Below, piece after piece: positions 828-18,776 of a stretch of DNA of 64,000 nucleotides (its first letter is position 1; every line of letters begins with the position of its first letter). The notes below the pieces were generated by a model. It was not told the origin of the DNA. It saw nothing but the letters and a program-made list of their open reading frames with translations, and made no database searches. Location of the stretch: contig JANQQU010000060.1 of NCBI GenBank assembly GCA_028284905.1, forward strand, positions 62,001-126,000. The letters run 5' to 3'. The position numbers and the translations under genes are program-made. This DNA is from Calditrichia bacterium (GTDB lineage: Bacteria; Calditrichota; Calditrichia; RBG-13-44-9; J075).

Positions 828-2215
828 ATGGATGCAAAAAATCAAATATTAGATGTCGCGATCATCGGCGGCGGTCCGGCAGGGTCTACAGCAGCGACCT
901 ACCTGACACGAATGGGTTATTCCGTAACGGTTCTGGAAAAAGAAAAATTCCCCCGGGAGCATGTCGGTGAGTCTTTATTGCCATTTTGCTATGAAGTTTT
1001 CGAGGAACTTGGCGTTTTGGAGGAAATGAAAAAACGGTTCGTACGCAAGCCGGGTGTACGCTTTGTTGGTACAGATGGAGAGACGCAGAACACCTGGTGT
1101 TTTGGACATGTCATCAAAGATCCCAGTGCGTTGTCCTTTCATGTTATTCGCGCAGAATTTGACGATCTCCTTCTAAAAAACAGCGCGAAGAATGGCGCAA
1201 CTGTCCATGAAGAAATGCGCGTTAAAAAAGTAACGCATGACACACCGGATGATATCGCACAAATCGAAGCCGTCGATGCTGCTGGCGAAGCCCACACTTT
1301 TCAGGCACGCTTCGTAATCGACGCTAGTGGACAACAAACCTTTATGGCTCGCCAGAATAAGTGGAAAAGCAGCATTGAAGACCTGGATCGGGTAGCACTT
1401 TCTACCCACTGGACCGGTGCAGAGTTTGTTGATTCTCTCTCTGAAGGGCTTCTGCAAATCGTCTATCTCGGCGGAGAAAAAAAAGGCTGGATATGGGTTA
1501 TTCCCGTTAGTGATCAGCGCTTGAGCATCGGTGTTGTTTTAAACAACAGCTATGTAAAGGAGCAACGGAAAAAACTCGAAGGTGACGGGGCAGACAGCTG
1601 GCGGGAAGCGCTTTATCGCCAGGAACTGTTTTCCTCTCCATTCCTCGCTAAAATTCTTGCCAATGCTGAGATCGCACAGCCGTTAATGCTAAATGGCAAC
1701 TATTCATATTATTCGCAGAAAAAATATGGAAAGAACTTTGCGATGATCGGAGACGCTGCATCCTTTTTAGATCCGATCTTTGCCAGCGGCGTCTATCTTG
1801 CAATGAATAGTGGGCGGATGATCGCAAAAGCAATTGACCAAAAACTTTCAGCCTCCGAAGCAAGTGAAGCATTAACAATCGATGTTGCATACCAGAAGAT
1901 AGAAGGCGCTTATGTTTTAATGGACAAGCTCATTCGTCTTTTCTATGACCCGGACGCAATTAATTTTGCCCAGTTGGGTCATGCCTTCCAGGTATTTGAT
2001 AGTAAGTTAAAATTCGCCTATTCCTTAACCTACTATCTGATTGCGGGAGACTTTTCAACAATCACGACAAATACCTTCACCTGCTGGACAGGTTGCGGGA
2101 TCCCCAGGTCGTCGAAGCTTACAAACGCGTTTATATAGACCGCCCCCAATTTGAAACCAGTATTACATGTGGAGTTGAGAAGGAAGAAGTTTTCGCAACT
2201 TCAATCGAAGAGTAA
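828..2215 (+). pseudogene. Flavin-dependent halogenase-like FAD oxidoreductase, copy 2, with a one-base frameshift near the 3' end
   Basis: The Rossmann FAD motif G-G-G-P-A-G is at residues 14-19, a V-G-E-S-L-L-P segment at 46-52, and the halogenase signature W-I-W-V-I-P at 221-226, followed by the G-D-A-A-S-F-L-D-P flavin segment. These mark the tryptophan-halogenase/CmlS-like superfamily, which halogenates aromatic (often carrier-protein-bound) substrates with FADH2, O2 and halide. The uninterrupted frame stops at 2138 after a nonsense tail. In the next frame the expected C-terminus continues (N-N-H-D-K-Y-L-H-L-L-D) to a TAA at 2213-2215 and matches copy 1. The shift lies at the T run 2052-2055, where copy 1 has a longer run. 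One missing T explains it, so it could be a sequencing or assembly error, a recent mutation or a slippage site. The gene follows copy 1 by 63 bases and precedes the ACP by 33. Confidence 0.8.
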
Positions 2216-2248: not shown

Positions 2249-2521
2249 ATGGACCGGCAACATATTACCAACGAACTCATTCGTATTTTTTCGTCCGAAG
2301 ATCATCTCGGTGCAAATTTTGACTCATCTCAGTTGACCGAAGAAACGTCATTAATACATGATCTCGGTCTGGAATCTATTCGGATTCTAAACCTGGTGGT
2401 TGATATTGAAAATTGCTTTCAGATCACCCTGAAGACTGAAGGCAGTATCATGGACCTGTTCGACCGTTTTGGCAACCTGCTGGACTTTATTGCGGCCAAG
2501 AAAACGGCAGCGGTGTCATGA
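2249..2521 (+). CDS. Acyl carrier protein
   Basis: A 90-residue stand-alone carrier protein of the phosphopantetheine-binding (PP-binding) family. Ser43 in the L-G-L-E-S-I motif is the predicted 4'-phosphopantetheine attachment site, and the hydrophobic/acidic pattern around it fits the four-helix ACP fold. An AGGAG ribosome site precedes the ATG. It overlaps the start of the next gene by four bases (ATGA), implying translational coupling to the chorismate-lyase-like protein. Its position between halogenases, a hydroxybenzoate-forming enzyme and an MBOAT acyltransferase suggests it carries an aromatic acyl group, in the way DltC carries D-alanine for DltB. No adenylating ligase or phosphopantetheinyl transferase is seen in the window. 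A role in fatty acid synthesis is less likely because no fab genes are nearby. The carrier identity is secure; the cargo is inferred. Confidence 0.9.
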   Translation: MDRQHITNELIRIFSSEDHLGANFDSSQLTEETSLIHDLGLESIRILNLVVDIENCFQITLKTEGSIMDLFDRFGNLLDFIAAKKTAAVS

Positions 2522-3120
2522 ACGGCATAAAGCCGGATGCATACCCCTTTTCTGAACTGTATGATTTAAGCGGCATGGACGCGCCGAAGCTTGAGTTTAT
2601 TCCCGGGCAACAAATTCCTCTACCGCAAAAAGATCTATTGGTACATCAATGGGATATGACATCCACATTGGAGAATTTTTGCCGGCAACGCATCCATGTA
2701 AAGCCATTGCAAATTCTCAAGAAAGGCACCGACTACCTCAGGCAAGTCGTTTTGGAATGCGACAATGAGCACCCGGTTTTGTTTGGGGCAATACGCATAA
2801 ACCTCGCCCTGCTTCCGGAGGATATTCAGGATATTATTCTTGGCAACCGAGAGCCGCTTGGCGGTATCCTCAACAAGAACAACATACCCTATGCCAGCCG
2901 GCCGAAAGCATTCTTTCGTGTTAACTCGGACAGCTTAATGGACGAGGTATTAAATATCCACTCATCCTCCCAGCTGTTTGGCAGAGTAAATCAACTAATA
3001 ACGCCTAATGACGAGATACTCGTGGATGTCGTTGAAGTTTTGACGAACAATTTCCACCAGCCGAAACAGGAATTCACCCCTATCCCCTCGGCAGCTCTGG
3101 TACAAAAAAAGGAAATTTGA
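2518..3120 (+). CDS. Chorismate pyruvate-lyase-like protein (DUF98/Rv2949c or UbiC type)
   Basis: The 200-residue product has the layout of chorismate lyases, which convert chorismate to 4-hydroxybenzoate and pyruvate. A T-S-T-L-E N-terminal helix is followed by Y-L-R-Q-V-V-L with Arg75 in the place of the chorismate-binding Arg of UbiC, then R-E-P-L-G-G (111-116) matching the family P-L-G segment. F-G-R (154-156) comes next, then a strand ending V-V-E-V-L in which Glu173 aligns with the UbiC catalytic-site Glu. The R-I-N-L and S-R-P-K-A-F-F-R-V stretches resemble the Rv2949c/DUF98 branch more than E. coli UbiC. The start overlaps the ACP stop (ATGA). In this context it would supply 4-hydroxybenzoate for loading on the ACP and possible halogenation. 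The assignment rests on motif reading, so a related lyase or a binding-only protein cannot be excluded. Confidence 0.72.
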   Translation: MNGIKPDAYPFSELYDLSGMDAPKLEFIPGQQIPLPQKDLLVHQWDMTSTLENFCRQRIHVKPLQILKKGTDYLRQVVLECDNEHPVLFGAIRINLALLPEDIQDIILGNREPLGGILNKNNIPYASRPKAFFRVNSDSLMDEVLNIHSSSQLFGRVNQLITPNDEILVDVVEVLTNNFHQPKQEFTPIPSAALVQKKEI

Positions 3121-7006: not shown

Positions 7007-8128
7007 ATGCTTAAACTATTAATAAAAACTCTCATTGTTTTTTTCATTGTTGGGGGCATTCTTTACCCATTAAACCAACTTGATTTAAAATCTCTGGATT
7101 CACTGGTTGCAAACAAAACTCGCGGATTAAAGCAACAATCCCGGAATATCAATACCATCTTTTTTGGCACCAGTGCGACCAGGCATGGTATTGACCCGCT
7201 CATACTGGACAGTCTAATGGCTAATGCAGGATTTCCGACGCGCACATTTAACTTTGCGATTAATGGTTTGCCGACTATCGGACAGCAGTTTCACCTGGAA
7301 AAATTTCTTGACCATAATTCCCCCAGGTTGAGAACAGTTTTCTTTGAACTCTCTTATCCGTTTAGCTTTTTGAGTCCCGCGGATTTGTATTCCTGGCGAT
7401 TTATCGAAACTCACGACACCAAACGTTTTCGGCAATACACCAACTATCTCTGGTGGCAATTTGGTGGCTTGAGCCGCCTTACAACAATCACTGACCGGGC
7501 ATATCTTTATAGTAGGAGCATCTCCCTTTCCGGGAGAGCAGAACAGATTCATGACGCACTGTATCCAGCCCCAATTGCCCTATCTCCTCCTGCATCTCAA
7601 ACCGAGCGCTACACTGGATTTACTCCCTGCGAAGAACTTAGCGCGGTGATAATTGCTACCCGGCTGCTAATTAACGAACCGGGGGGCGAGGAGCAATTCT
7701 ATCATTTCCTTACGAAAAAATCCGAGATTCCGGAAAGGATTAAAACCCGCAAAGAGGATGTTGTTCTGATTAATATTTTCCAGGAGATTATCGATGTTTG
7801 CAAAGCCCGTGGTATTCAGGTAATTTTCTATCTTCCTCCAAAGCCATACCATTATCGCTCATTGGTCCAGGCATACCGGCAGCGCAACCTGGAAGCGCCA
7901 TTAATCAATATGAATTTGCCGTTAAAATATCCGGAATTGTTCAGCATTGAAAACTGGTTCGATATTAGCCATGTGAATCATAAAGGTGCAAAACTGCTTA
8001 CCAGAACCTTTGTAGAGCAAATTCTTGAATTGCCACAATTTAGCATACCATCTCAAGCGATTATTCCTTCATCTAAACATTACAGCGATTTATTGCCATC
8101 GGAATATAATGCGGAGCCCCAATATTGA
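7007..8128 (+). CDS. Membrane-anchored SGNH/DltD-like protein, paralog 3
   Basis: About 373 residues and closest to paralog 1. It has an N-terminal anchor (4-22), F-F-G-T-S-A-T-R-H with Ser56, then N-F-A-I-N-G and F-F-E-L-S-Y, the shared W-R-F-I-E-T-H-D segment, and F-D-I-S-H-V-N-H-K-G-A (Asp319, His322) at the end. ATG at 7007 is chosen over a TTG at 6980 because it aligns with the other two N-termini. The stop overlaps the TTG start of the ABC transporter (TTGA), so the two are probably translated together. That links the acyl-transfer proteins to export of the substrate. The W-R-F-I-E-T-H-D segment shared with paralog 1 shows duplication followed by divergence. Enzymatic function is predicted, not established. 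Confidence 0.72.
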   Translation: MLKLLIKTLIVFFIVGGILYPLNQLDLKSLDSLVANKTRGLKQQSRNINTIFFGTSATRHGIDPLILDSLMANAGFPTRTFNFAINGLPTIGQQFHLEKFLDHNSPRLRTVFFELSYPFSFLSPADLYSWRFIETHDTKRFRQYTNYLWWQFGGLSRLTTITDRAYLYSRSISLSGRAEQIHDALYPAPIALSPPASQTERYTGFTPCEELSAVIIATRLLINEPGGEEQFYHFLTKKSEIPERIKTRKEDVVLINIFQEIIDVCKARGIQVIFYLPPKPYHYRSLVQAYRQRNLEAPLINMNLPLKYPELFSIENWFDISHVNHKGAKLLTRTFVEQILELPQFSIPSQAIIPSSKHYSDLLPSEYNAEPQY

Positions 8129-9933
8129 GAATAATACATAACCAGGAACTCAACTTCCTTCTACGCTCCCTTCATCCCTACTGGCATTTTTTGCTTTTAG
8201 TCTTCTTTTTATCATCCCTCGCGGCCATATTCGAGGGTGTTTCAGTTGGTATGTTAATCCCATTGTTAAGCAGTTTTCAGACGGAAAGTAATACTACTGA
8301 GCTCCCCGGATTCGTCGCTTTTCTCCTGACTCTTTTTGACGGTTTATCCCCGCAAATGCAATTTATTTCTGCCATTGGTATTCTTGTTTCCGGCATTGCT
8401 CTAAAAAACCTGCTGGTCGTCATCTCAATCTATATCGGTTATTGGGTTAACAGCAAGGTTGTTGCCGGCCTACAGGAAAAAGCAATCGATATGTTGATGA
8501 CCGTCGACATCAGCTATTATCACGATGTTCGCACCGGGGAACTGGCTGACAAGATTCTTGACCACACCTTCAAAGTATGGTTTGTCATCCAGGGAGCAGT
8601 TAAGTTTTGTGTTTACGCTATCACACTGATGATGCTTTTCTCTTTAATGCTGATATTCTCCTGGCATCTGACTCTGCTATCTGTTTTAATGGGCGCTTTT
8701 ATTGCATTAATCATCAGCAAATACAGTCAGCACATCTATCGCATGAGCAGCACCGCTACAAATTTCCGGCAATCGCTGGCAGCAACACTGGTGGAAAATA
8801 TTAGCGGCATCCAAACAATACGGCAATCCACGAAGGAGGAGCAACAAACATCACGGTTTTTAGAATTGGTGAACAACTATCGGATCAGTATCTACAAAAT
8901 GTTTGCAGGATTTTCCAGCATTAGTGGCATTAGTGAAGGGCTTGGGGGACTTGTTGTCGGCGTTCTGGTCATTGTCGGGGTATTTTATTTACAAATGGGA
9001 CAGGCAAAACTGATGACCCAACTCCTCCCTTTTATTTACATCCTCTCCCGAATGTTACCGGCGGCGAAAGAAATGAACCAGGGCTGGGGACAAATTGCCG
9101 GGCACTGGACTTTTCTTTACAGAGTAAACCAATTACTAATGAAAGAGAACAAACCTTTCACAGTAGACGGCAAAAAGGATTATCCAGGATTAAAAAAATC
9201 AATAAGCATAGAAAATGTCACCTTCTCCTATAATTCCGGCGAAGAGCAAGTATTGAGGGATATTAACTTTACAATTCCCCAGGGGAAAAAGACGGCGATT
9301 GTCGGCACTTCCGGATCAGGCAAGACAACGCTCATCAATTTATTGCTAAAATTCTATACGCCTCAAAACGGGAGAATACAAATAGATGATACGCCATTAA
9401 AAGAGATAAGTGCTCAGTCTTTACGTAGTGCCATTGGCATTGTTAGTCAGGATACATTCATCTTCAATGATACAGTTGCAAACAATATTGCTTTCGGAAC
9501 TAAAGGAGAAATTTCCGATTCAGCGATCAGAGCTGCAGCGCTTAAAGCAGGTGCGCATGAATTCATCAGCAACTTATCGGAAGGGTATGAGACTATTCTC
9601 GGAGATCGTGGCATAAAACTTTCCGGGGGGCAACGGCAACGAATTTCCATTGCCCGGGCAATTCTAAAAGATCCGGAAATTCTCATCCTGGATGAGGCGA
9701 CCAGTTCACTGGACAATCAAACCGAAAAGAAGATTCATCAGGCAATTATGGAACTAAGCCACGATCGCACTGTGATTATTATTGCTCATCGCCTCTCAAC
9801 GATTAAGGGGGCGGATCAGATAATTGTATTGAAAGACGGCGCCATAGCAGAGCAGGGCCATGAAAGTGATTTATTGAAACAACAAGGAGAGTTCTTTAAG
9901 ATTGCCCAATCAATCATCGAGGACAAGCATTAA
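8125..9933 (+). CDS. ABC exporter, fused membrane and ATPase domains (MsbA/lipid or glycan flippase type)
   Basis: A 602-residue half-transporter with six predicted membrane helices (about 15-325) and a C-terminal ATPase. Walker A G-T-S-G-S-G-K-T-T is at about 394-402, the signature L-S-G-G-Q at about 499-503, Walker B with D-E-A-T-S-S-L-D just after 520, and the H-loop in I-I-A-H-R-L-S-T-I. This is the MsbA/PglK type that works as a homodimer and moves lipids, lipid-linked oligosaccharides or drugs across the inner membrane. The start is a TTG overlapping the stop of the preceding gene, consistent with coupling. It is the last plus-strand gene of the cluster and meets a glycosyltransferase tail-to-tail 22 bases on. 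It probably flips the glycolipid or lipid-linked product that the neighbouring genes build or decorate. The substrate cannot be read from sequence. Confidence 0.88.
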   Translation: MRIIHNQELNFLLRSLHPYWHFLLLVFFLSSLAAIFEGVSVGMLIPLLSSFQTESNTTELPGFVAFLLTLFDGLSPQMQFISAIGILVSGIALKNLLVVISIYIGYWVNSKVVAGLQEKAIDMLMTVDISYYHDVRTGELADKILDHTFKVWFVIQGAVKFCVYAITLMMLFSLMLIFSWHLTLLSVLMGAFIALIISKYSQHIYRMSSTATNFRQSLAATLVENISGIQTIRQSTKEEQQTSRFLELVNNYRISIYKMFAGFSSISGISEGLGGLVVGVLVIVGVFYLQMGQAKLMTQLLPFIYILSRMLPAAKEMNQGWGQIAGHWTFLYRVNQLLMKENKPFTVDGKKDYPGLKKSISIENVTFSYNSGEEQVLRDINFTIPQGKKTAIVGTSGSGKTTLINLLLKFYTPQNGRIQIDDTPLKEISAQSLRSAIGIVSQDTFIFNDTVANNIAFGTKGEISDSAIRAAALKAGAHEFISNLSEGYETILGDRGIKLSGGQRQRISIARAILKDPEILILDEATSSLDNQTEKKIHQAIMELSHDRTVIIIAHRLSTIKGADQIIVLKDGAIAEQGHESDLLKQQGEFFKIAQSIIEDKH

Positions 9934-9955: not shown

Positions 9956-10909
9956 TTAACTTCCCGGCAGTAATTTACTTCTCAAGGTTTCTAAATACCG
10001 GGGTGACCACAAATATAGCATCGTGTAAAGCAGGTCTTTATAATGCGAAATTCCGCCGGTTAGGACATTTGTCTGTAAACTTTTTTTGAAATACTTCCGG
10101 GCTTCCCGCCAATTTTCATTATGTCGGTATAATTGTGCAAGATATAAATACTGAGAGGCAAGATACTTGGCAATGTGTTTGTCATATGCTGGCTTTAGAT
10201 GCGGCCTCACGAATTCCCGGGTTTGAATATTTAATTTAGCCTGACTAATGTTGCCCATCGTCGACCAAACCCCGCCTTCATGTATTCGATAACAAACCAT
10301 GACTTCATCCAGATAGCCTATTTTGCCATTTTCCCCCATCATCACATAGAATGGCCAGTCTCCAATAATGAGGGTTTCGTCCCGGAACCACTGCGGGAAT
10401 CCCTTGAAGGCAGAGCGGCGGAACATGGTAGAACCGGAATGCATGAACGTATATCGTGAGAGCAAATCTTCATAAGTATATTTTTGTTTTCGCCCCGGTG
10501 GAAAAACGGCTTTTGATTCGCCGTCAGGGGTCAGCCATCTGAAGGCATGAGAGCAGATGGTGCAATCCGGATTGCTCTCAAAAAAATCGACCTGCCGCTG
10601 AAGTTTATGGGGAGACGTCCAGTAATCATCACCATCGATAATTGCAATAAATTCCCCCTGGCACGCATTGATCGTACGAATAAAATTTTGGCGAGCGCCT
10701 TTATTTTTTTCCGGAAATTCAGTTCGAATAATATCAGGGTGCTTTCGCTGGTACTCCGTTATGATTTCCCGGGTTTTATCCGGTGAACAATCTTCTCCGA
10801 CAACAACTTCAAATTGAAAATCAGTTTTCTGAGAGAGAATACTTTCCAGCGCCTGCGCAATAAATTTTTCATGGTTATATGAAATAACTGCGACACTTAC
10901 CTTTATCAT
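9956..10909 (-). CDS. Family 2 glycosyltransferase
   Basis: 317 residues with a GT-A nucleotide-sugar-binding N-terminus. V-S-V-A-V-I-S-Y-N-H opens the fold, G-E-D-C-S-P-D is at 38-44, and the metal-binding D-G-D-D-Y-W is at 92-97. A probable acceptor-side region with F-R-R-S and G-D-W-P-F-Y-V-M segments follows. GT2 enzymes invert the donor sugar onto a lipid- or glycan-bound acceptor at the cytoplasmic face of the membrane. No membrane helix is evident. The gene begins two bases after the aminotransferase stop, so both are in one operon. With the aminotransferase, sulfotransferases and acyltransferase upstream, it belongs to a surface-glycan or glycolipid pathway. Sugar specificity is unknown. 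Confidence 0.88.
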   Translation of the reverse strand: MIKVSVAVISYNHEKFIAQALESILSQKTDFQFEVVVGEDCSPDKTREIITEYQRKHPDIIRTEFPEKNKGARQNFIRTINACQGEFIAIIDGDDYWTSPHKLQRQVDFFESNPDCTICSHAFRWLTPDGESKAVFPPGRKQKYTYEDLLSRYTFMHSGSTMFRRSAFKGFPQWFRDETLIIGDWPFYVMMGENGKIGYLDEVMVCYRIHEGGVWSTMGNISQAKLNIQTREFVRPHLKPAYDKHIAKYLASQYLYLAQLYRHNENWREARKYFKKSLQTNVLTGGISHYKDLLYTMLYLWSPRYLETLRSKLLPGS

Positions 10910-10910
10910 C

Positions 10911-12161
10911 CTAACCTACCCAGCTTTCATCTATAATTACTTGCTCTGTTGCAGGCTGGCGTTCTTCGTGAATACGTGTGTTGATTTCTTCACTATTATC
11001 GACGATGAGGCGAATAATTTCAGCGACAGATTGAATGTCACCTTTATTGACGGATGTCCCTGTAGGCAAAGAGAACAAACGTGTGGTAAGCCTTTCTGTA
11101 ACTGGTAATTTTATATTTTGATAAATTGGGTTAGAATTATACGGCTCCATTTTATGACATCCGGGATAAAAATAGCGGCGGGCAAATACCCCTTCCGCCA
11201 TCAACAGATCGACGATACAGTCCCGATCGACGCCGGCAATTGCGCTATCCACGTCGAGGACAATGTTATGATAGTTATAGTCGTTAGTGTCATCATATTC
11301 CATTAGCCGCACTCCCTTGATTCCTGAAAGTGCTTTTTTGTAAGCCAAATAGTTTTCTTTGTTCGCCTGAAGAAATTTTGGTAGAGAATCCAGCCCTGCC
11401 AATCCCATAATTGCGGACATCTCATTCATTTTGCCGTTGATTCCCAAAAAAGAAACCTGATCCGTATCGGAAAAACCAAAATTTTTCAAAAGCCGGATTC
11501 TTTTTGCCAGCGCGTCATTGTTTGTTACTATGGCGCCACCTTCAAAGCTGTTAAACACCTTTGTTGCATGGAAGCTAAAGACTTCCATATCACCAAAATG
11601 TCCAATCTTTTGGCCATTATGAGAACAGGCAAATGCATGACATGCATCATAAACTATTCTGAGCTGATGTTGCCTGGCGAGTTTTTCTATACTTTCAGCA
11701 TCACATCCTCTCCCCCAAAGATGCACGCCGAGAATCGCAGAGGTTTGTGGGGTAATCAACTCTCTTGCATGGTTAGGGTCAAGCGTAAAAGTTACCGGGT
11801 CAACATCGCAAAATACCGGCTTTATTCCCTGCCACTGTAATGCATGCGCTGTGGCCACAAAGGTAAAAGACGGCACAATGACCTCTCCACGCAGCTCGAG
11901 TGCCTTGAAAGCGATCTGCAAAGCAATCGTACCATTACAAAGGGCGATGCAATGCTTGACGCCAAGATAGCTCGCGAGTTTTTCTTCGAACCTGGCGATA
12001 TAGACACCGTCGTTGGTAAGCCATTTTCTATTGAGGATGTCGTCGAGATGTTTGTGTAGAAATGCCCGGTCGCCGATATTCGGGCGGCCAACAAAAAGCT
12101 TGTTTGGAAACGCTTGCTTTCCCCCAAAAAAGCAAAGGTCTCCAATTCGTTCCTTTTTCAT
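10911..12161 (-). CDS. DegT/DnrJ/EryC1/StrS-family sugar aminotransferase
   Basis: 416 residues, a PLP-dependent enzyme that typically transaminates a nucleotide-linked keto sugar using glutamate. Visible motifs are C-N-G-T-I-A-L-Q (75-82, phosphate-binding turn), P-S-F-T-F-V-A-T (97-104), Y-D-A-C-H-A (171-176, Asp172 to the pyridine N) and S-F-H-A-T-K (196-201), with Lys201 the Schiff-base lysine. The family splits into many sugar-specific branches, and the exact product (for example a 3- or 4-amino sugar) cannot be told here. A NeuD/PglD-like acyltransferase 2 kb upstream on the same strand could N-acylate the amino sugar, as PglD does after PglE. It is cotranscribed with the GT2 gene. Confidence 0.88.
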   Translation of the reverse strand: MKKERIGDLCFFGGKQAFPNKLFVGRPNIGDRAFLHKHLDDILNRKWLTNDGVYIARFEEKLASYLGVKHCIALCNGTIALQIAFKALELRGEVIVPSFTFVATAHALQWQGIKPVFCDVDPVTFTLDPNHARELITPQTSAILGVHLWGRGCDAESIEKLARQHQLRIVYDACHAFACSHNGQKIGHFGDMEVFSFHATKVFNSFEGGAIVTNNDALAKRIRLLKNFGFSDTDQVSFLGINGKMNEMSAIMGLAGLDSLPKFLQANKENYLAYKKALSGIKGVRLMEYDDTNDYNYHNIVLDVDSAIAGVDRDCIVDLLMAEGVFARRYFYPGCHKMEPYNSNPIYQNIKLPVTERLTTRLFSLPTGTSVNKGDIQSVAEIIRLIVDNSEEINTRIHEERQPATEQVIIDESWVG

Positions 12162-12475
12162 ACAAATCCCTTTGTATCTTTCCTGTCCCTGTCATCATAA
12201 AACAGATCAACATCTGCTTTTCCAGAAGAATATACCTCCCTGCAATTTCCTGAAAGCACCCAAAAACATTTTAGGGGTTTAAAAAATCATAACCAAATCC
12301 ATCCCTAGCAAAGGTATTTTCATTATAGAACAAATATTTTCTGCCATTGTGAACAATGACATAGGGACAGCAAATCATTTCCGAATACCAACAGGCGGAT
12401 AAAATTTCAATTCCGAATTTTTTATCCAATCTCGCCCACATTTCTCCAATTCAAGCATTTTCTATTAACTTCTTA
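12162..12475. other. Intergenic stretch of 314 bases between aminotransferase and sulfotransferase-like gene
   Basis: The right two thirds hold the propeller-gene remnant at 12271-12462. The remaining 110 bases (12162-12270) precede the aminotransferase start and could contain its promoter, but no convincing -35/-10 pair or operator was identified. Confidence 0.6.
12271..12462 (-). pseudogene. Decayed C-terminal copy of the beta-propeller glycosidase-like gene at 13195-14133
   Basis: Read on the minus strand, this stretch encodes about 60 residues that line up with the C-terminus of the intact propeller gene 0.9 kb away. M-I-C-C-P-Y-V-I-V-H-N-G-R-K-Y-L-F-Y matches M-I-C-Y-P-C-V-V-V-H-K-G-R-K-Y-M-F-Y, followed by G-F-G-Y and a stop at 12271-12273. 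An in-frame TGA at 12451-12453 and the lack of any upstream coding region show it is a remnant. It fills most of the space between the end of the sulfotransferase-like gene and the aminotransferase. This is best explained by a duplication of the propeller gene followed by loss of most of one copy. Confidence 0.85.
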
Positions 12476-13177
12476 CTAGCTGGCAGATTTGTTTAGATGA
12501 GGCATTCTACTAATTCGATCTTTAGGCAAACCCAAGAAGTCTACAATCTTTGAAGTATCTTTTTCTTTGCCAATATCAATAACCAGCAATTGATTTCTCC
12601 TGCCCTGAAAATATCTTATAATCTCCTGATTTCTTGCTTCATATATAGCTATCCGAAACGCCCTGTCATAGATTAATGACCACTCATAAGAAATCTTATC
12701 TCCCTTAACAATTGCGGCATTTCTCCGGGCTGCACGATATAAATAGTTTTTCCGTATATAAATATTTTTATCTTTAAACGTATCCTCATTAAATTCTTCG
12801 ACCTTCTTTAGCCCTGCTTTTTTCAATATCCCACCGAGATGAAATCTTACCAGGCTGTCAAACCATGCATTTGAATCCCGCACGGTAAGTATGAATTTAC
12901 TTTCGGGATACATACTATCGAGCACAGCATAGGTAACCCCTTGCGAAAAAGGCATATCCTGGAAAGCCTCAAATTTGTCGCACAGTGCTTTTAACGGTCG
13001 AAAATCTCCGTCGAATAACGCTTCAACAACAAGCGCTTCCTGCTCAACCTGAACAGGCATACGGTAACCAAGATCTCTCAACAACCGTTCTACTGAAGTC
13101 GTACCGGTTTTGTTATAGCCGATACAAAAAACCTTTGTCCGTTGCTGTTTTTCAAACAAACTGATTAGTTTCTTCAA
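12476..13177 (-). CDS. Sulfotransferase-family protein (P-loop)
   Basis: 233 residues. The N-terminal F-C-I-G-Y-N-K-T-G-T-T-S (about 17-28) is the PAPS-binding loop of sulfotransferases, and F-I-L-T-V-R-D-S-N-A-W (about 114-124) fits the second, 3'-phosphate-binding motif. A D-x-G segment and a G-L-P-K-D tail resemble small sulfotransferase-family proteins found in polysaccharide clusters. These enzymes transfer sulfate from PAPS to a hydroxyl, usually of a sugar. It lies 17 bases after the propeller gene. PAPS-forming enzymes are not in the window. The substrate is unknown, and it may be a non-sulfating family member. Confidence 0.75.
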   Translation of the reverse strand: MKKLISLFEKQQRTKVFCIGYNKTGTTSVERLLRDLGYRMPVQVEQEALVVEALFDGDFRPLKALCDKFEAFQDMPFSQGVTYAVLDSMYPESKFILTVRDSNAWFDSLVRFHLGGILKKAGLKKVEEFNEDTFKDKNIYIRKNYLYRAARRNAAIVKGDKISYEWSLIYDRAFRIAIYEARNQEIIRYFQGRRNQLLVIDIGKEKDTSKIVDFLGLPKDRISRMPHLNKSAS

Positions 13178-13194
13178 ACTTATATATCCTGAAC

Positions 13195-14133
13195 TTATTC
13201 GCTGTTTAAAACAGCATATCCAAAGCCGTTTTGGCCAAATGTATTACCATTATAAAACATATACTTTCTGCCCTTGTGAACTACAACGCAAGGGTAACAT
13301 ATCATTACCGAATCCCAACCACTTTCAGAGATATCAATTCCCACCAAATTATCCTTACGTGTCCAGGCTACACCGTTCGCAGATTCTGCATATCCGATTC
13401 TATAACTGTTTTTCCGGTTTTCCCGATAATCATATCCGTTTCGGTAGGCATACCACATTTTATAAATTTCATTCTCTTTCAGGACTGAAGCCCGAACAAT
13501 CCCACCTTCCGCCTCCGTTGCATAATCGATAGCGACCAGGCCTTTTCTTTCCCAGTTAATGCCATCAGAAGATTCTGCATATTTGATATGGTAAAAAGGT
13601 TCCGGCTGGCCATTAAACACTTCCCATTTAGTGCAGGACATATACCAGTTTTTCCAAACACCATCTTCTATCAGCACGCAAGATGTTCCGGTGAAATAGG
13701 GTTCCTTCCAGGTGGAAGCGAACAAAGGCCCGGCAGCAAATCGTTCAAAGTTCTTTCCGCCATCCTTACTTATTGCCAGGCCAATAGCATTGTGATAGGG
13801 AATGGTTTGGCGAACCGTCCAGCCGATATAATAAAGGTATTTCACATTACCGATGGTAATGATCCAGGATGGCATTACGCCGCAATCATCAAACCGACCG
13901 AGAATTCCCGGTGTCATAATCGGTTCCGGATGCTCATAAATGATGTTGCCCGGATTCCCGGCCTCCACCTCAATATAGCTGATATGAGATCGATTGGTTT
14001 CATCGCGAGTCGCGTAATAAATCCGCCATATTGCTTCATCAATAACATCAACCGTGGGGACCGATGCATGTGACTGGTTCCAGGATTTGTCTTTCCGCGG
14101 AGAGAATATATGTCCTAGTTTTTCCCATTTCAT
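13195..14133 (-). CDS. Five-bladed beta-propeller glycosidase-like protein (GH43/GH130-like fold)
   Basis: 312 residues with repeated blade elements: W-R-I-Y-Y-A-T-R-D (near 35), G-V-M-P-S-W-I (near 78), Y-L-Y-Y-I-G-W, W-Y-M-S-C-T-K-W, Y-K-M-W-Y-A-Y-R-N-G and R-K-Y-M-F-Y-N-G-N. This pattern is typical of the five-bladed propeller glycoside hydrolases and their non-catalytic relatives in exopolysaccharide loci. No signal peptide is present. The open frame extends to 14355, but that part overlaps the acyltransferase in another frame. The ATG at 14133 has a strong GGAGGT five bases upstream and sits one base after the acyltransferase stop, so this start is secure. A decayed copy of its 3' end lies at 12271-12462. 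Whether it cleaves, phosphorolyses or only binds a glycan is not known. Confidence 0.75.
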   Translation of the reverse strand: MKWEKLGHIFSPRKDKSWNQSHASVPTVDVIDEAIWRIYYATRDETNRSHISYIEVEAGNPGNIIYEHPEPIMTPGILGRFDDCGVMPSWIITIGNVKYLYYIGWTVRQTIPYHNAIGLAISKDGGKNFERFAAGPLFASTWKEPYFTGTSCVLIEDGVWKNWYMSCTKWEVFNGQPEPFYHIKYAESSDGINWERKGLVAIDYATEAEGGIVRASVLKENEIYKMWYAYRNGYDYRENRKNSYRIGYAESANGVAWTRKDNLVGIDISESGWDSVMICYPCVVVHKGRKYMFYNGNTFGQNGFGYAVLNSE

Positions 14134-14134
14134 A

Positions 14135-14797
14135 TTACACCTCCAAATCTTTGCTGGAAACTTTTCCCTTCTTTGCCGGCACTCCCATATAAACACTCCA
14201 GTGATCTGTATTGCCAACAACGCAGGCACCCATTGCCACCAGGGTTCCCTCAGCCAGATGTATTTGATCCCGAATTGTAGAATTAACACCGAAGTAACAA
14301 TATGGCTCAACAATACAGTGCCCGGAAAGCACCACATGCGAGGTAAAAAACACATGATCTTTTATTTCCCCATGATGCCCGATGTGATTGCCGCTCCAAA
14401 GAACAACATTATTACCTATTGAGGTAAATGGTTGAATCGTATTGTCTTCGAAGATAAAACAATTTTCCCCAATTTTATTTATTGGGAAAGTCGTCGCCTT
14501 GGAACTAACATAACTGATTAAGGAATAGCCTTTTTCCTTAACTTCGTGGTAAACAGACTCTCGCAATCGATTCATTTTTCGCCCGGTCAGTGGTGCGAAG
14601 AAGGCGTATTGGTTAGGGTTGAAATACTCTTCAACTGTTTCAAAGGGAACGACCGGCAGCCCCTTGAATTGTTTTTCTGCTGGCATATATGCTTCATGCA
14701 CGCTAAAAGCAACAACTTCATGCTCGCTGTCAGTTGACAAATAATAATGTGCAAGCTCAGCTAAATCCAATAATCCGAACACAACAACTTTTGCCAT
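14135..14797 (-). CDS. NeuD/PglD-like sugar O/N-acyltransferase, left-handed beta-helix
   Basis: 220 residues. The N-terminal M-A-K-V-V-V-F-G-L-L-D is the Rossmann-like sugar-nucleotide-binding part of the NeuD/PglD family. From about residue 100 the hexapeptide pattern of a left-handed beta-helix appears (I-G-E-N-C-F-I-F, I-G-N-N-V-V-L-W, H-I-G-H-H-G-E-I, V-V-L-S-G-H-C, V-G-N-T-D), ending in V-Y-M-G-V-P-A-K-K-G. The G-x-H-I-G-H-H segment is the usual site of the catalytic His. Such enzymes acylate amino or hydroxyl groups of nucleotide sugars in the cytoplasm with acetyl-CoA or a similar donor. AAAGGTAG precedes the ATG. The DegT-type aminotransferase in the same gene group is a natural source of the amino-sugar substrate. 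Confidence 0.85.
   Translation of the reverse strand: MAKVVVFGLLDLAELAHYYLSTDSEHEVVAFSVHEAYMPAEKQFKGLPVVPFETVEEYFNPNQYAFFAPLTGRKMNRLRESVYHEVKEKGYSLISYVSSKATTFPINKIGENCFIFEDNTIQPFTSIGNNVVLWSGNHIGHHGEIKDHVFFTSHVVLSGHCIVEPYCYFGVNSTIRDQIHLAEGTLVAMGACVVGNTDHWSVYMGVPAKKGKVSSKDLEV
14139..14144 (-). promoter_or_regulatory. Ribosome binding site deciding the start of the propeller gene
   Basis: Minus-strand GGAGGT five bases before the ATG at 14133. It lies inside the last codons of the acyltransferase region and rules out the longer reading to 14355. Confidence 0.85.
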
Positions 14798-14887
14798 GTT
14801 ATCTACCTTTCACTTCTCGATTATTTCCTGGTGACTATGACAACTTATTCCGTCTTTCGGAAGATTCCTATCGGTAATATCCGATTA

Positions 14888-15724
14888 TCAAAATCCCCAA
14901 CGACGATATTCCCGGCCGGTGAAAGCAGCCAGTTTTTTAACATCATCAAACAGCGCTTCTTTGAATTGCGCTTCTGATTTTTTGCTAAACTTCGGCTTCT
15001 TTAGCTGGCGGGAGAAGGGATAATAGACAACTCTTTCCAGATGCCAGGCAACACCATCCGGCATTTTTTTTAGCAAACGCATGGCAGCGCTTTTATTTAA
15101 AGCTTCACCAAACCTGGTGCGTTTCCGTTTGGCATTGCTACGGTGCCACTCTTTTCGGAATTTTTCACTGGTAAATGTGTCATCGACTGCCAGAAAACGA
15201 AAGATGTCATGCATTGTCTTTTCTGTGCTGCATTTGAGATCATTTGAATCGACAACCAAGATATTGCTTTCGGGGAAATATTCTAAATATTGTTCCAACT
15301 GATAATAATAACTGGCTGTATCAATATAGAATCGCCTTTTTTCCGAATTGAGCAATTCTTTTTCAAAATCCTCATGCGCTTTCCCTTCGGCGAGAAGATG
15401 TAAATAAGTTGACAAAATCTTTTCCAGCGGATTACGCACCAGGTAAATGAGTTTCACATCGGGAATGAGTGAGTGTATCCGCTCCGGCACGCCATCATAA
15501 AGGGGATGCATACTATACAACGGACTGGCTTCCCCGCGGACCGGAAGCTTGGCTTGAAAATGAGATTTATACCATTTTAATCCTTTATCCCAATTCTTTT
15601 CGCTAACAAAAAAATGTGTTTCCTTCATTTCCGACATGTGAATCTCGGGATGCAGCTTCAAATAGTTGTGTAAACTGGTGGTACCACACTTCATAGCACC
15701 AATGATGATAAGGTTAGGCAGCAT
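14888..15724 (-). CDS. Sulfotransferase
   Basis: 278 residues with a clear PAPS-dependent sulfotransferase layout. The 5'-phosphosulfate loop I-G-A-M-K-C-G-T-T-S-L is at about 8-18, and L-I-Y-L-V-R-N-P-L-E-K-I-L-S-T-Y carries the Arg and Ser of the 3'-phosphate motif near 95-110. A C-terminal G-R-E-Y-R-R-W-G-F is seen in bacterial heparan-sulfotransferase-like proteins. It is predicted to place sulfate on a sugar hydroxyl or amine in the cytoplasm. It is first in the minus-strand group that continues into the acyltransferase, propeller and second sulfotransferase-like gene. Two sulfotransferases in one locus suggest a sulfated surface glycan. Family identity is secure; the acceptor is unknown. 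Confidence 0.9.
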   Translation of the reverse strand: MLPNLIIIGAMKCGTTSLHNYLKLHPEIHMSEMKETHFFVSEKNWDKGLKWYKSHFQAKLPVRGEASPLYSMHPLYDGVPERIHSLIPDVKLIYLVRNPLEKILSTYLHLLAEGKAHEDFEKELLNSEKRRFYIDTASYYYQLEQYLEYFPESNILVVDSNDLKCSTEKTMHDIFRFLAVDDTFTSEKFRKEWHRSNAKRKRTRFGEALNKSAAMRLLKKMPDGVAWHLERVVYYPFSRQLKKPKFSKKSEAQFKEALFDDVKKLAAFTGREYRRWGF

Positions 15725-15881
15725 ATTGTTTGTTCTTTTTGTTTAACAACTTTAATAATAATACTTTTACACAGCGATATGTGTGTGATCAATTTAGCAG
15801 TTTATGAGTACTTTTTTGGCAGTCTTATCGAAACATAATTTCAAAAATGTCTTATACTAACTTGTGCGATCCAAACTTTTC

Positions 15882-15888
15882 GGAGGAG
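15882..15888 (+). promoter_or_regulatory. Ribosome binding site deciding the start of the kelch-type protein
   Basis: GGAGGAG three bases before ATG 15891. It favours this start over an upstream in-frame GTG at 15864. Confidence 0.8.
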
Positions 15889-15890
15889 AC

Positions 15891-16889
15891 ATGAGATTTT
15901 CCCCCCTTATTAAATTACGATTTATTCCAACGGTCTTACTAATGTTCATTTTCATGATATTGGGCCTTGCAAAAGCAGAGACGATGTCCGGTGAAGACGC
16001 AATCAGCGCCCCTCCCCCACTCGCATCGCATGTGATGGTATATCACGACAGACTGGAGATGGTCGTGCTTTTCGGTGGATCAAACCCGGAGCGTCAAATG
16101 TCCAATAAACTTTGGGGATGGGATGGCAAAGCATGGCATTTGCTTTCCGACAGCGGGCCTGAACCGAGAATCCATGCTGGTCTGGCTTACGATTCGTCCA
16201 GAGATAAGCTGGTGCTTTACGGTGGCATTAAAAGTCGTGCAGAAAGTTTTGCAGATACCTGGGAGTGGGATGGCAAATCCTGGACGCAAGCTGCAGACAG
16301 CACTAACGCACCGAACATAAGAGACCACCATGCGATGGTTTATTACCCGGAAATGGAATCTGTGCTTCTGTTTGGTGGACAAGATCAAAACGACAATTTC
16401 CTGGGAAGCAGTTGGCAATGGGATGGAAAGACCTGGCGTTTAGTTAGTGAGGAAGGGCCGTTGCCCCGCAGCACTCATCGCCTAACTTATCATTCTCAGA
16501 ACAAATCGATTTTGCTATATGGGGGCTGGGGAGCAGATGGGCACCTCGGCGATACCTGGCAATGGGACGGTAAAAGCTGGCAGTCTTCCTCGGGAGAACA
16601 GCCATCGGCTCGTGCAGCAGCCCGGATTGCCTACGACAAAGCAAATCAACAAGCGGTGCTTTTTGGTGGCATGGTCGTTCGTTCCCCAAGCAATGAAACC
16701 TGGGTTTATGACGAAAAAGGTTGGCGTCAATTAACAACGGAGAATGTTCCTCCGCGCAATGTTCATGGCATGGCATACGACGTTAAAAGACAGCGGGTCG
16801 TGCTTTACGGCGGCATTGGCACCAATGGTAGAATGGGTGATGTTTGGGAATGGGATGGTCAAGCATGGGCGCAGGCATTTTCTCAATAA
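15891..16889 (+). CDS. Secreted kelch-repeat beta-propeller protein
   Basis: 332 residues with a signal peptide (basic start, hydrophobic core about 10-25, A-K-A cleavage site near 27). The rest is six repeats of about 50 residues, each with V-L-F-G-G or V-L-Y-G-G followed by W-x-W-D-G-K-x-W, the kelch/galactose-oxidase propeller signature. The W-x-W-D-G element is very regular, and each repeat begins with a P-R-x-x-H-x-x-x-Y-D segment. Kelch propellers bind proteins or glycans; no copper-oxidase residues can be assigned. It is divergently oriented from the sulfotransferase with about 165 bases between, and ends tail-to-tail with the dioxygenase gene over a shared hairpin. The role is unknown, probably binding in the periplasm or outside. 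Confidence 0.85.
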   Translation: MRFSPLIKLRFIPTVLLMFIFMILGLAKAETMSGEDAISAPPPLASHVMVYHDRLEMVVLFGGSNPERQMSNKLWGWDGKAWHLLSDSGPEPRIHAGLAYDSSRDKLVLYGGIKSRAESFADTWEWDGKSWTQAADSTNAPNIRDHHAMVYYPEMESVLLFGGQDQNDNFLGSSWQWDGKTWRLVSEEGPLPRSTHRLTYHSQNKSILLYGGWGADGHLGDTWQWDGKSWQSSSGEQPSARAAARIAYDKANQQAVLFGGMVVRSPSNETWVYDEKGWRQLTTENVPPRNVHGMAYDVKRQRVVLYGGIGTNGRMGDVWEWDGQAWAQAFSQ

Positions 16890-16917
16890 AAATTACAGCT
16901 GTTATTTTTAAACAATC

Positions 16918-16957
16918 ATTTTTAGCAGATGAGCAAAGATGCCCATCTGCTAAAATT
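16918..16957. terminator. Bidirectional intrinsic terminator between convergent genes
   Basis: Inverted repeat ATTTTAGCAGATG (left) and CATCTGCTAAAAT (right), extended by a GC pair, with a short loop. A-rich and T-rich flanks on both sides let it end transcription of the kelch gene and of the dioxygenase gene. Confidence 0.75.
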
Positions 16958-16973
16958 CAGTAAAGAACCAACT

Positions 16974-17780
16974 TTAAAGTTTCTCTTTTAAATCTGCGTA
17001 ACCTTTGCGAATATCGATGCCTTCTGATTCATCATTAAAAGGCGTCGAGCAAAATCCCAATACAGCTTTCTGTGAATCGCTTAATTGATTGTATATATCA
17101 GATGGCAGGTTTCCCGGGATATCAAAATTCTGTTTTATCCACCACCTCGAAAATGTAGCGATCATAGACCACCGGGTGTTATTTGTTGTGTTCTTCCCGG
17201 CACCGTGCCACAGCCGGCTATCCCAAATAACAATATCTCCAGCATGGGATTCAATCGGTACAGCATTATCCATCGCCTCCTGCTTCGCATACTCCCCAGT
17301 ATTGTGCGACCCCGGCACCACCAGCGTACAACCATTTTCAACGGTTTGATCTTCCAGGATAATCGCTGCCTGCATAACAAACGGATGTTCGCTTTTATAA
17401 GGCACAAAGGAATCAATATGCAACGGTAATGGCGTATTACTGCTCCTGGCCAGATATGCCCGCAAAATATAATTCGGTTGATCAAGTGGAATTTGCTTAT
17501 ACCAAACATCGTTAAGGAAGTGAACAAGTATTTTCTGAAGCGAATCTGATGAAAAAAGCAGTTCCAGAAAGTAATGGTTCTTGTTCTGTAAATTGTAAAC
17601 CATCCGTTGGTCCCTGTTTAGGAATGGAATATTTTCCAGATCACCATCCAATCGCTCATCATAGCACTTCAGTACTAAAGATCGCGCTTTCTCGACCTGG
17701 GCACCGGAAAAGACTCCAGGAATGATGCAATACCCATCAGCACTTATTTTCTCTATCATTTTCATTGAATCAATATTCAT
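16974..17780 (-). CDS. Phytanoyl-CoA dioxygenase (PhyH)-family Fe(II)/2-oxoglutarate oxygenase
   Basis: 268 residues. The N-terminal D-G-Y-C-I-I-P-G-V-F is typical of the PhyH family. The iron triad can be read as His121 and Asp123 in L-H-I-D, and His192 in W-H-G-A-G, with Arg203 as the likely 2-oxoglutarate ligand. P-G-S-H lies at 156-159. Such enzymes hydroxylate (or, rarely, halogenate) small molecules in the cytoplasm. The Asp is present, so this is not a non-haem iron halogenase of the SyrB2 type, which has Gly or Ala there. Placement beside a halogenase/MBOAT/glycan locus suggests tailoring of a lipid, sugar or aromatic group. It follows the acyltransferase-like gene on the same strand. 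The substrate is unknown. Confidence 0.87.
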   Translation of the reverse strand: MNIDSMKMIEKISADGYCIIPGVFSGAQVEKARSLVLKCYDERLDGDLENIPFLNRDQRMVYNLQNKNHYFLELLFSSDSLQKILVHFLNDVWYKQIPLDQPNYILRAYLARSSNTPLPLHIDSFVPYKSEHPFVMQAAIILEDQTVENGCTLVVPGSHNTGEYAKQEAMDNAVPIESHAGDIVIWDSRLWHGAGKNTTNNTRWSMIATFSRWWIKQNFDIPGNLPSDIYNQLSDSQKAVLGFCSTPFNDESEGIDIRKGYADLKEKL

Positions 17781-17840
17781 CGCAACCTCACATTTCGGTT
17801 TCTGAAACTATCCTTATTGCACATCTTTTTTTACATCCAT

Positions 17841-18776
17841 TCAAGTGAATTCACCCCTTCGATAGGAGGGGAAAAATTCATTTTTTTTACTGCTTACCTC
17901 ATTCGTAAGCGTTAAGTACGATTTAGCATCAAATATTCGTCCAACAAAATATACCGGCCTGCTGGCATTAGACCAGCCGGATTTAAAACGGTCTAAGCCA
18001 TTTGAAGGATCAACCGTCAAACCGCTGCCGGCCCCTAAATTTAAACAGTGTATTCCCTCTGCGGAAAAATAGTCTATCGCATAGCGGAACAATGCAAACG
18101 AGGCTTTTAATGTATAACCGGTTTCATCATAGGCACCCAAATGATAGTAGGCATGAGTGCCCTGAACATACCAGAGTAACATTCCGACCACCTGCTCCTG
18201 ATAAAGTGCTTTGAATGCCATCAGTCCCGGTACCGCGAATTGTTTCTGAAATGCATTTCGTGAAAACGCACTTATCCCCCGAATATTATGACGAATTTTC
18301 AGGATGTCATACAGGCGCTGCCAATCATTCAACGCTTTTTCCGAATTTTCCACTTCCTTAATACTCAAATGCTTAAATGCATATCGAGCATTCCGTTGAT
18401 GGTGCTTAGAAAAGTTGAAAACATCGACAGCTTTTAAATCAACCAGGTAATGCATTTTGAAAACTTTGCAGACATCAGGGAAAAGCAATGCGAGCGATTT
18501 AGTATCATACGAACCAAATGGGTCGATGACTGCTGAAAAAGCGACCACCTCTTGTCCTAATTTATGCAGATCTTCGGCTAAGCGATCCCAATATCTGCAG
18601 GTAAACAACGGATAACAGCCCATTGCGTCATACATTTTCGTTCCCGGGATCGGCCGCTTTAAAACCCACCCATCACTCCAGGGTAAGTGAACCGGTTCTC
18701 CAAACTCCCGAAGAGAGGCGGCATATTCCGGATGCAAGTACCCGAACGAATTTATTTCGATTGAATCAACTGACAC
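17841..18776 (-). CDS. GNAT-superfamily acyltransferase (FemAB/acetyltransf_6-like)
   Basis: 311 residues with a GTG start. The N-half has a FemAB-like layout (Y-D-A-M-G-C-Y-P-L-F-T, H-H-Q-R-N-A-R-Y-A with basic residues). The C-half carries a GNAT-like core, with F-K-A-L-Y-Q-E-Q-V-V-G-M-L-L and Y-Y-H-L-G-A-Y followed by L-K-A-S-F-A-L-F-R-Y-A-I and L-N-L-G-A-G-S-G-L. This matches the acetyltransf_6 (BioF2-like) type often encoded in exopolysaccharide and natural-product clusters, where it acylates an amine on a sugar or small molecule. No signal or membrane segment is visible. The 60-base gap to the dioxygenase suggests co-expression. Donor and acceptor are not predictable. Confidence 0.78.
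   Translation of the reverse strand: MSVDSIEINSFGYLHPEYAASLREFGEPVHLPWSDGWVLKRPIPGTKMYDAMGCYPLFTCRYWDRLAEDLHKLGQEVVAFSAVIDPFGSYDTKSLALLFPDVCKVFKMHYLVDLKAVDVFNFSKHHQRNARYAFKHLSIKEVENSEKALNDWQRLYDILKIRHNIRGISAFSRNAFQKQFAVPGLMAFKALYQEQVVGMLLWYVQGTHAYYHLGAYDETGYTLKASFALFRYAIDYFSAEGIHCLNLGAGSGLTVDPSNGLDRFKSGWSNASRPVYFVGRIFDAKSYLTLTNEVSSKKNEFFPSYRRGEFT

Follow-up and report, generated by a model that had tools for sequence, protein, structure and literature searches.

Does a sugar-modification cassette that meets a halogenase-MBOAT operon tail-to-tail in a Calditrichia bacterium supply the acceptor for that operon's acyl group, or do the two share nothing except a boundary? The question arises in a stretch of 64,000 nucleotides (hereafter the window; contig C2:62001-126000) of genome G000, which belongs with Calditrichota and comprises 8.55 Mb in 93 contigs. 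A sequence-only reading had placed six gene families at 9956-15724 of the window and joined their product to the operon. Our analysis indicates that the minus-strand genes of 9956-18776 are probably a mosaic, mobile cassette for an N-acylated 4-amino-4,6-dideoxyhexose, its attachment to a surface glycan and its sulfation there, independent of the halogenase-MBOAT operon and met by genomic chance.

Before the first base of the window, the halogenase half has an AMP ligase (C2:59814-61304) and a first halogenase whose gene extends into the window. There follow a second halogenase, an acyl carrier protein (ACP), a 200-amino-acid protein, an MBOAT, three proteins without Pfam match that we take to be DHHW/AlgJ-like, and a HepA/MsbA-like ABC exporter (NF045513 HepA family, 492.5 bits, under the cut-off of 725). 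The 200-amino-acid protein (2518-3120), which we assume to be UbiC/chorismate-lyase-like, has no Pfam or NCBIfam match. Residues 2-409 of the second halogenase are 71% identical to the first, and its last ~30 residues (window 2046-2138) differ, by eye as after a change of reading frame. The exporter gene ends at 9933 and the GT2 gene of the cassette stops at 9956, so that, as had been noted, 22 bases lie between them. The sequence-only reading built on this junction, proposing that the cassette may make a sulfated amino-sugar glycolipid to which the MBOAT transfers a halogenated aromatic acyl group, with export by the ABC protein. Convergent genes imply no shared transcript.

Whole-genome searches within the class carry the argument for separation, rather than the locus counts given further below. 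Among 98 genomes including G000, the five-bladed propeller protein of the cassette has matches at E <= 0.001 in 21, and full-length orthologs (E <= 1e-60) in G000 and five others (G039, G031, G023, G021 and G022), all from other families of the class. Neither the 200-amino-acid protein nor the third DHHW protein has a match in any of these five, where halogenase matches reach 30% identity at best. Relatives of the halogenase at E <= 1e-20 occur in 25 of the 40 class genomes, with identities of at least 35% confined to G000 and G003; these are also the two genomes of the 98 that hold the 200-amino-acid protein, and G003 has no propeller match. The third DHHW protein is limited to G000 (1/40), at ten places. 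G000 is likewise the only class genome with both the propeller and a halogenase of more than 36% identity. MBOAT matches are found in nine of the 40, with seven places in G000; two of the five other propeller carriers have them: G021 shows one match about 268 kb away on the propeller contig and one on a different contig, and in G031 the match is likewise not on the propeller contig.

The reverse situation is seen within G000 itself. Contig C89 encodes an AMP ligase (42% identity), a halogenase (54% to the first and 61% to the second of the window), an ACP (43%), two MBOATs (55% and 57%) and DHHW proteins, and the 38 kb read there with tblastn (E <= 1e-3) held none of the eight cassette proteins, no 200-amino-acid protein and no ABC exporter. 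This second AMP-ligase/halogenase/ACP/MBOAT/DHHW locus (C89:95288-103850, L158) also contains an O-methyltransferase and a UbiA-type prenyltransferase; a P450 and an Stf0 sulfotransferase follow on the next stretch. Another cluster type, shared by G000 (contig C36, L033:5255-9884) and G003 (L032:9556-14010), groups the 200-amino-acid protein and a halogenase-like protein with hotdog thioesterase-like, small membrane and CoA-ligase-like proteins; apart from the halogenase and the 200-amino-acid protein, these labels were given by eye.

Since each half occurs without the other, the propeller in five class genomes and the halogenase half on C89, a joint pathway is not supported. This is the outcome that the sequence-only reading had itself named as one that would speak against it. 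Neither the expected conservation of both halves in relatives nor the cassette product as acceptor of the MBOAT acyl group held up. For the N-acyl group of the cassette sugar, the cassette's own NeuD-like enzyme is a likelier source than the MBOAT. The adjacency looks like chance, and we found no evidence of a tie beyond it.

In a wider set of genomes, the cassette recurs in varied company. A pattern-based scan of a genome collection returned 496 propeller relatives, and the best 80 were kept as loci with flanks of up to 8 kb (42/80 longer than 16 kb; some near relatives counted apart). In these best 80 of 496, tblastn (E <= 1e-8, at least half of the query) detected DegT in 65, NeuD in 63, WbqC in 56, GT2 in 45, PhyH of either of two types in 29, sulfotransferase relatives in 13 (14 by phmmer) and the PF13480 GNAT in eight. 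Of the 74 loci in which a propeller open reading frame (ORF) was called, 46 have NeuD immediately upstream of it; the other six, in which a longer ORF overlapped the propeller, were left out. A second GNAT type (~186 amino acids, PF13302) is present in 7/80, never alongside NeuD. Such counts suggest that the propeller accompanies an N-acylating enzyme. ABC-type exporter genes are also frequent in propeller loci, with an ATPase cluster in 16 (by eye Wzt) and an ABC2_membrane cluster in 15. The window's propeller is up to 63% identical to those of DegT-WbqC-(methyltransferase)-NeuD-propeller cassettes, and propeller cassettes span many bacterial phyla and two archaeal records (L074 and L106). 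At one locus (L112:3043-5695) the propeller stands behind genes that are by eye SpsF- and PseG-like, i.e., in a pseudaminic/legionaminic-acid type locus.

Halogenase, ACP, 200-amino-acid protein, DHHW and formyltransferase were each found by tblastn in none of the 80 loci. For the halogenase this zero says little, as the window's own MBOAT lies 8.6 kb from the propeller and the flanks reach at most 8 kb; the ABC gene (3.3 kb) and the third DHHW gene (5.1 kb) are within that reach. In favour of the pathway proposed by the sequence-only reading stand the 22-base junction, MBOATs in four of the 80 loci, the DHHW relatives that a laxer search retrieved in L040 and, in part, in L043 (2/80), contig C41 of G000, where MBOATs, glycosyltransferases and a Sulfotransfer_4 relative lie within 25 kb, and the Stf0 sulfotransferase ~11 kb from the C89 halogenase. 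HepA-type ABC relatives (29-35% identity) accompany the propeller in 3/80. Because of the MBOATs in propeller loci and on C41, some acylation of such glycans is possible. Set beside the class genomes and C89, we nevertheless judge it unlikely that the cassette makes the acceptor of the halogenated aromatic acyl group.

The six gene families that the sequence-only reading had named are all present where it put them on the minus strand (Table 1). Single-gene identities rest on family matches (Pfam, NCBIfam). Judged by gene content, the unit appears larger than had been noted: the PhyH and GNAT genes are counted as members because relatives sit in the same cassettes elsewhere, which extends it to 9956-18776. 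The PhyH protein is 57% identical to the product of the gene immediately following the propeller in L035, and relatives of the PF13480 GNAT (37-50% identity) occur in all five Calditrichota propeller islands, the G039 copy being cut by the contig end. With a plus-strand kelch gene lying among them, the minus-strand genes must form two or more transcription units. A single base separates NeuD from the propeller and DegT from GT2; for the former pair, the propeller start was taken at 14133, one base after the NeuD stop, and not at the 14355 of the ORF list. Scans for promoters (17 sites, 15.8 expected) and terminators (4 sites, 6.8 expected) were uninformative.

Table 1. Cassette genes and their boundary features in the window (window coordinates)
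Feature	Position	Strand	Support or remark
HepA/MsbA-like ABC exporter, last gene of the halogenase-MBOAT operon	8125..9933	+	PF00005/PF00664; boundary, not a cassette member
GT2 glycosyltransferase, 317 amino acids	9956..10909	-	PF00535 1.3e-26
DegT/DnrJ/EryC1/StrS sugar aminotransferase, DesI/VioA-like, 416 amino acids	10911..12161	-	PF01041 2.2e-106
Second propeller copy, C-terminal remnant (pseudogene fragment)	12277..12450	-	57 amino acids, 56% identity, E 2e-19 to the intact propeller
Sulfotransferase-family protein (Sulfotransfer_4), 233 amino acids	12476..13177	-	PF17784 4.2e-20
Five-bladed beta-propeller, GH130/GH43-like fold, 312 amino acids	13195..14133	-	Predicted model and structural match
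NeuD/PglD/VioB-like hexapeptide acyltransferase, 220 amino acids	14135..14797	-	TIGR03570 6.1e-43 (below cut-off), Hexapep
Sulfotransferase-family protein (Sulfotransfer_1), 278 amino acids	14888..15724	-	PF00685 1.8e-19
Kelch-repeat protein	15864..16889	+	Signal-like start by eye; interrupts the minus-strand genes of the cassette
PhyH-type 2-oxoglutarate/Fe(II) oxygenase, 268 amino acids	16974..17780	-	PF05721 1.3e-26; outside the interval first reported
PF13480 GNAT acyltransferase, 311 amino acids	17841..18776	-	PF13480 5.3e-9; outside the interval first reported

What would such a cassette make? In the proposed route, dTDP-4-keto-6-deoxyglucose would come from the general RmlA/RmlB pathway, DegT would aminate C4, the NeuD-like enzyme would N-acylate the amino sugar in the cytosol, and GT2 would transfer the acylated sugar. 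The propeller, too, would work on this sugar, whether as glycosyltransferase, as phosphorylase or in trimming; sulfate from 3'-phosphoadenosine-5'-phosphosulfate (PAPS) would be added by the pair of sulfotransferases, and PhyH and GNAT may modify the product further. DegT is a clear member of its family (PF01041, 356.5 bits) and carries an SFHATK motif; its closest NCBIfam model, TIGR04427 DesI, scores 516.8 bits, under the cut-off of 650, and we infer a probable 4-aminotransferase from this likeness. The acyltransferase aligns with TIGR03570 over its full length at 146.8 bits, slightly under the cut-off of 160.8, and is labelled NeuD-like rather than filed as a NeuD/PglB/VioB member. RmlB scores above cut-off on contig C85 of the same genome. 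In a Vibrio locus (L041), DegT-WbqC-NeuD-propeller comes immediately after genes that look, by eye, like RmlB and RmlA.

Both sulfotransferase-family proteins exceed their gathering scores (Sulfotransfer_1 70.6 bits, cut-off 22; Sulfotransfer_4 73 bits, cut-off 22.8). The former contains GAMKCGTTSL and VRNPLEKILSTY, the latter GYNKTGTTSV and VRDSNAWFDSL, which match what we take to be the expected PAPS motifs (a P-loop-like 5'-phosphosulfate motif and a 3'-phosphate motif). PAPS could be supplied by an APS kinase on contig C19 (PF01583, 1.6e-71). A protein 53-54% identical to the Sulfotransfer_4 protein is encoded near the propeller of G022, and at least one relative of the sulfotransferase queries occurs in each of the five Calditrichota propeller carriers; in G039 it is of the TSHGW type only, to which Pfam gives no match. 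With an aminotransferase, a NeuD-like acyltransferase, two sulfotransferases bearing PAPS motifs and an APS kinase, the part of the sequence-only reading that saw a sulfated, N-acylated amino-sugar glycan is plausible as the cassette product, and only its role as MBOAT acceptor lacks support.

The propeller has a confident AlphaFold2 model (mean pLDDT, the predicted local distance difference test, 96.9) with the five-bladed beta-propeller of the GH130/GT108 superfamily, and the best structural match is a GH130 1,2-beta-oligomannan phosphorylase (9fj8, Z 30.3, 2.2 A over 269 residues, 18% identity); further solved matches are related glycosidases. GT108 is not among the structural matches listed, which does not exclude it. 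The Pfam GH130 family PF04041 scores 20.9 on the 386-amino-acid ORF, under the gathering score of 26. EDPR, presumably the GH130 catalytic motif with its catalytic aspartate, is present in none of 79 aligned propeller sequences, and FDDxG in 66 of them. The GH130 profile alignment fits the propeller in several blade registers (at most 15 of 20 GH130 loci gave usable rows); with the register ambiguous, the active site is not assignable from sequence and the absence of EDPR does not mean that the catalytic residue is lost. Keyword literature searches, which were not made by sequence and so give no proof of absence, turned up no described function for the propeller. We tentatively suggest, as one possibility among others, that it represents a widespread uncharacterised GH130-fold family serving N-acylated amino-deoxysugars, either as a glycosyltransferase or as a GT108-like synthase using a sugar 1-phosphate, and tied to whichever N-acylating enzyme the locus holds (NeuD-like, GNAT or formyltransferase).

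A second, truncated propeller copy sits between DegT and Sulfotransfer_4. Its closest relative among the 79 propellers is the window's own (score 175, next 160), which points to a decayed local duplication and disfavours a scar of an older, different propeller.

Most of the five Calditrichota relatives place the cassette in a different setting. In four of them (G031, G023, G021 and G022) the propeller island abuts flagellar genes, read by eye and backed by Pfam on one protein each in G031 (FlgK) and G023 (Flagellin_N); the G039 contig is too short to show whether flagellar genes adjoin. Sugar-modification islands are part of the Calditrichota flagellar clusters L028, L029, L030 and L031; two of them have a GNAT next to DegT and the propeller, and two a formyltransferase. 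G021 and G022 have a formyltransferase between DegT and the propeller. Flagellin was considered as acceptor in G000 and rejected, as the genome gave no Flagellin_N match (PF00669, 0/1; the control found Flagellin in 4/14 genomes). Since G000 is without flagellin, its acceptor must differ from the flagellar setting of the relatives.

Sequence relationships within the cassette are uneven. In a tree of 79 propellers, three Calditrichota rows group with a single row each from Myxococcota and Bacteroidota (100/98), a clade that excludes the window's propeller. The row nearest to the window's propeller is a gammaproteobacterium (94/91, not starred), and among starred sets spanning at most half of the rows none includes the window's propeller. 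The 13 groups on the tree require 28 changes against a minimum of 12 and a shuffled mean of 40.7, counts that do not by themselves prove transfer. For the window's DegT, the highest identities (49-55%) are to those of Verrucomicrobia, Planctomycetes and Acidobacteria (L048, L054, L067, L072, L076, L096 and L113), as against 40-43% to Calditrichota. Propeller searches matched 32 plasmid records, 19 of them from Rhizobium, and no phage sequence. On these comparisons we read the cassette as a mosaic that probably moves horizontally.

Several observations weigh against an independent cassette for a sulfated, N-acylated amino sugar, in addition to the MBOATs in propeller loci, the C41 cluster and the short reach of the flanks already mentioned. 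Neither NeuD nor the second GNAT occurs in 10/80 loci, of which L071, L097, L104 and L107 have near-complete flanks; in L110, counted in this group, the propeller is preceded by what looks, by eye, like a further GNAT. The exchange of acylating enzymes is not clean either, because a NeuD relative (43%) is also present farther off in the G021 and G022 islands. DegT and the NeuD-like protein each score under the cut-off of their own best NCBIfam model, no rmlA or rmlB was seen inside the cassette, the Sulfotransfer_1 protein has one relative only in the loci compared (L043, 30%), and the flagellar setting of the relatives cannot provide the acceptor in G000.

The amino sugar might instead decorate a secreted halogenated aromatic small molecule or lipid from the plus-strand operon and never reach a surface glycan. 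The DesI likeness of DegT, as in antibiotic sugars, and the O-methyltransferase, UbiA prenyltransferase, P450 and sulfotransferase near the C89 halogenase would fit such a tailoring role. We consider it still less probable than the glycolipid acceptor, because the DesI score is under cut-off, because propeller loci often contain ABC-type exporter genes and glycosyltransferases, or flagellar genes, and because halogenase, ACP and the 200-amino-acid protein are missing from the flanks of all 80, within the limited reach of those flanks. Least probable of all is a decaying relic without present function, for which the propeller remnant, the mosaic make-up and the kelch interruption could speak, since all eight genes are open, seven match relatives over >90% of their length and the Sulfotransfer_1 protein over 81%, and the one-base spacings of NeuD-propeller and DegT-GT2 are as often in coupled genes.

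Read as an independent surface-sugar cassette, the locus can be set beside known systems. As published, the viosamine island of Pseudomonas syringae pv. tabaci comprises vioA, vioM, vioT, vioS, vioB, vioR and acp, with the VioA aminotransferase and VioB acetyltransferase serving N-acylated modified viosamine that VioT adds to flagellin (PMC3927599). The window's cassette resembles it, as there described, in pairing an aminotransferase with an acyltransferase, and its Calditrichota relatives in abutting flagellar genes. It differs in having no VioS/VioR/ACP set, in its 317- rather than 1,173-amino-acid transferase and in a genome without flagellin; the seven-gene list in that source, in turn, names no propeller, sulfotransferase or PhyH gene (PMC3927599). 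Like the DegT-WbqC-(methyltransferase)-NeuD-propeller cassettes of O-antigen-like loci, the window has NeuD immediately preceding the propeller, with DegT and GT2 close by, whereas WbqC (PF08889) and the small methyltransferase were not found among the window ORFs scanned with Pfam. As for the propeller, GH130 and GT108 have a five-bladed fold in common and GT108 members are dual transferase-phosphorylases, according to a review (PMC8950772). The predicted window propeller is likewise five-bladed, with its model matched to a GH130 entry, but it lies under the PF04041 gathering score, EDPR is missing throughout the alignment, and its setting is sugar synthesis and not breakdown. In a separate locus (L009:66-12309), two large Peptidase_C14 (caspase-like) proteins, one with nSTAND1 and WD40 repeats, stand beside two Trypsin_2 proteins, possibly as a defence island.

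To conclude, the cassette is an ordinary type of surface-sugar cassette, as the sequence-only reading had correctly seen, and a tempting neighbourhood reading is corrected: convergent, seemingly complementary operons separate once relatives and a second halogenase locus are checked. The part of the cassette most worth laboratory work is the propeller. A GH130-like protein without assigned function that travels with sugar aminotransferases and N-acyltransferases gives this enzyme family a testable substrate class.

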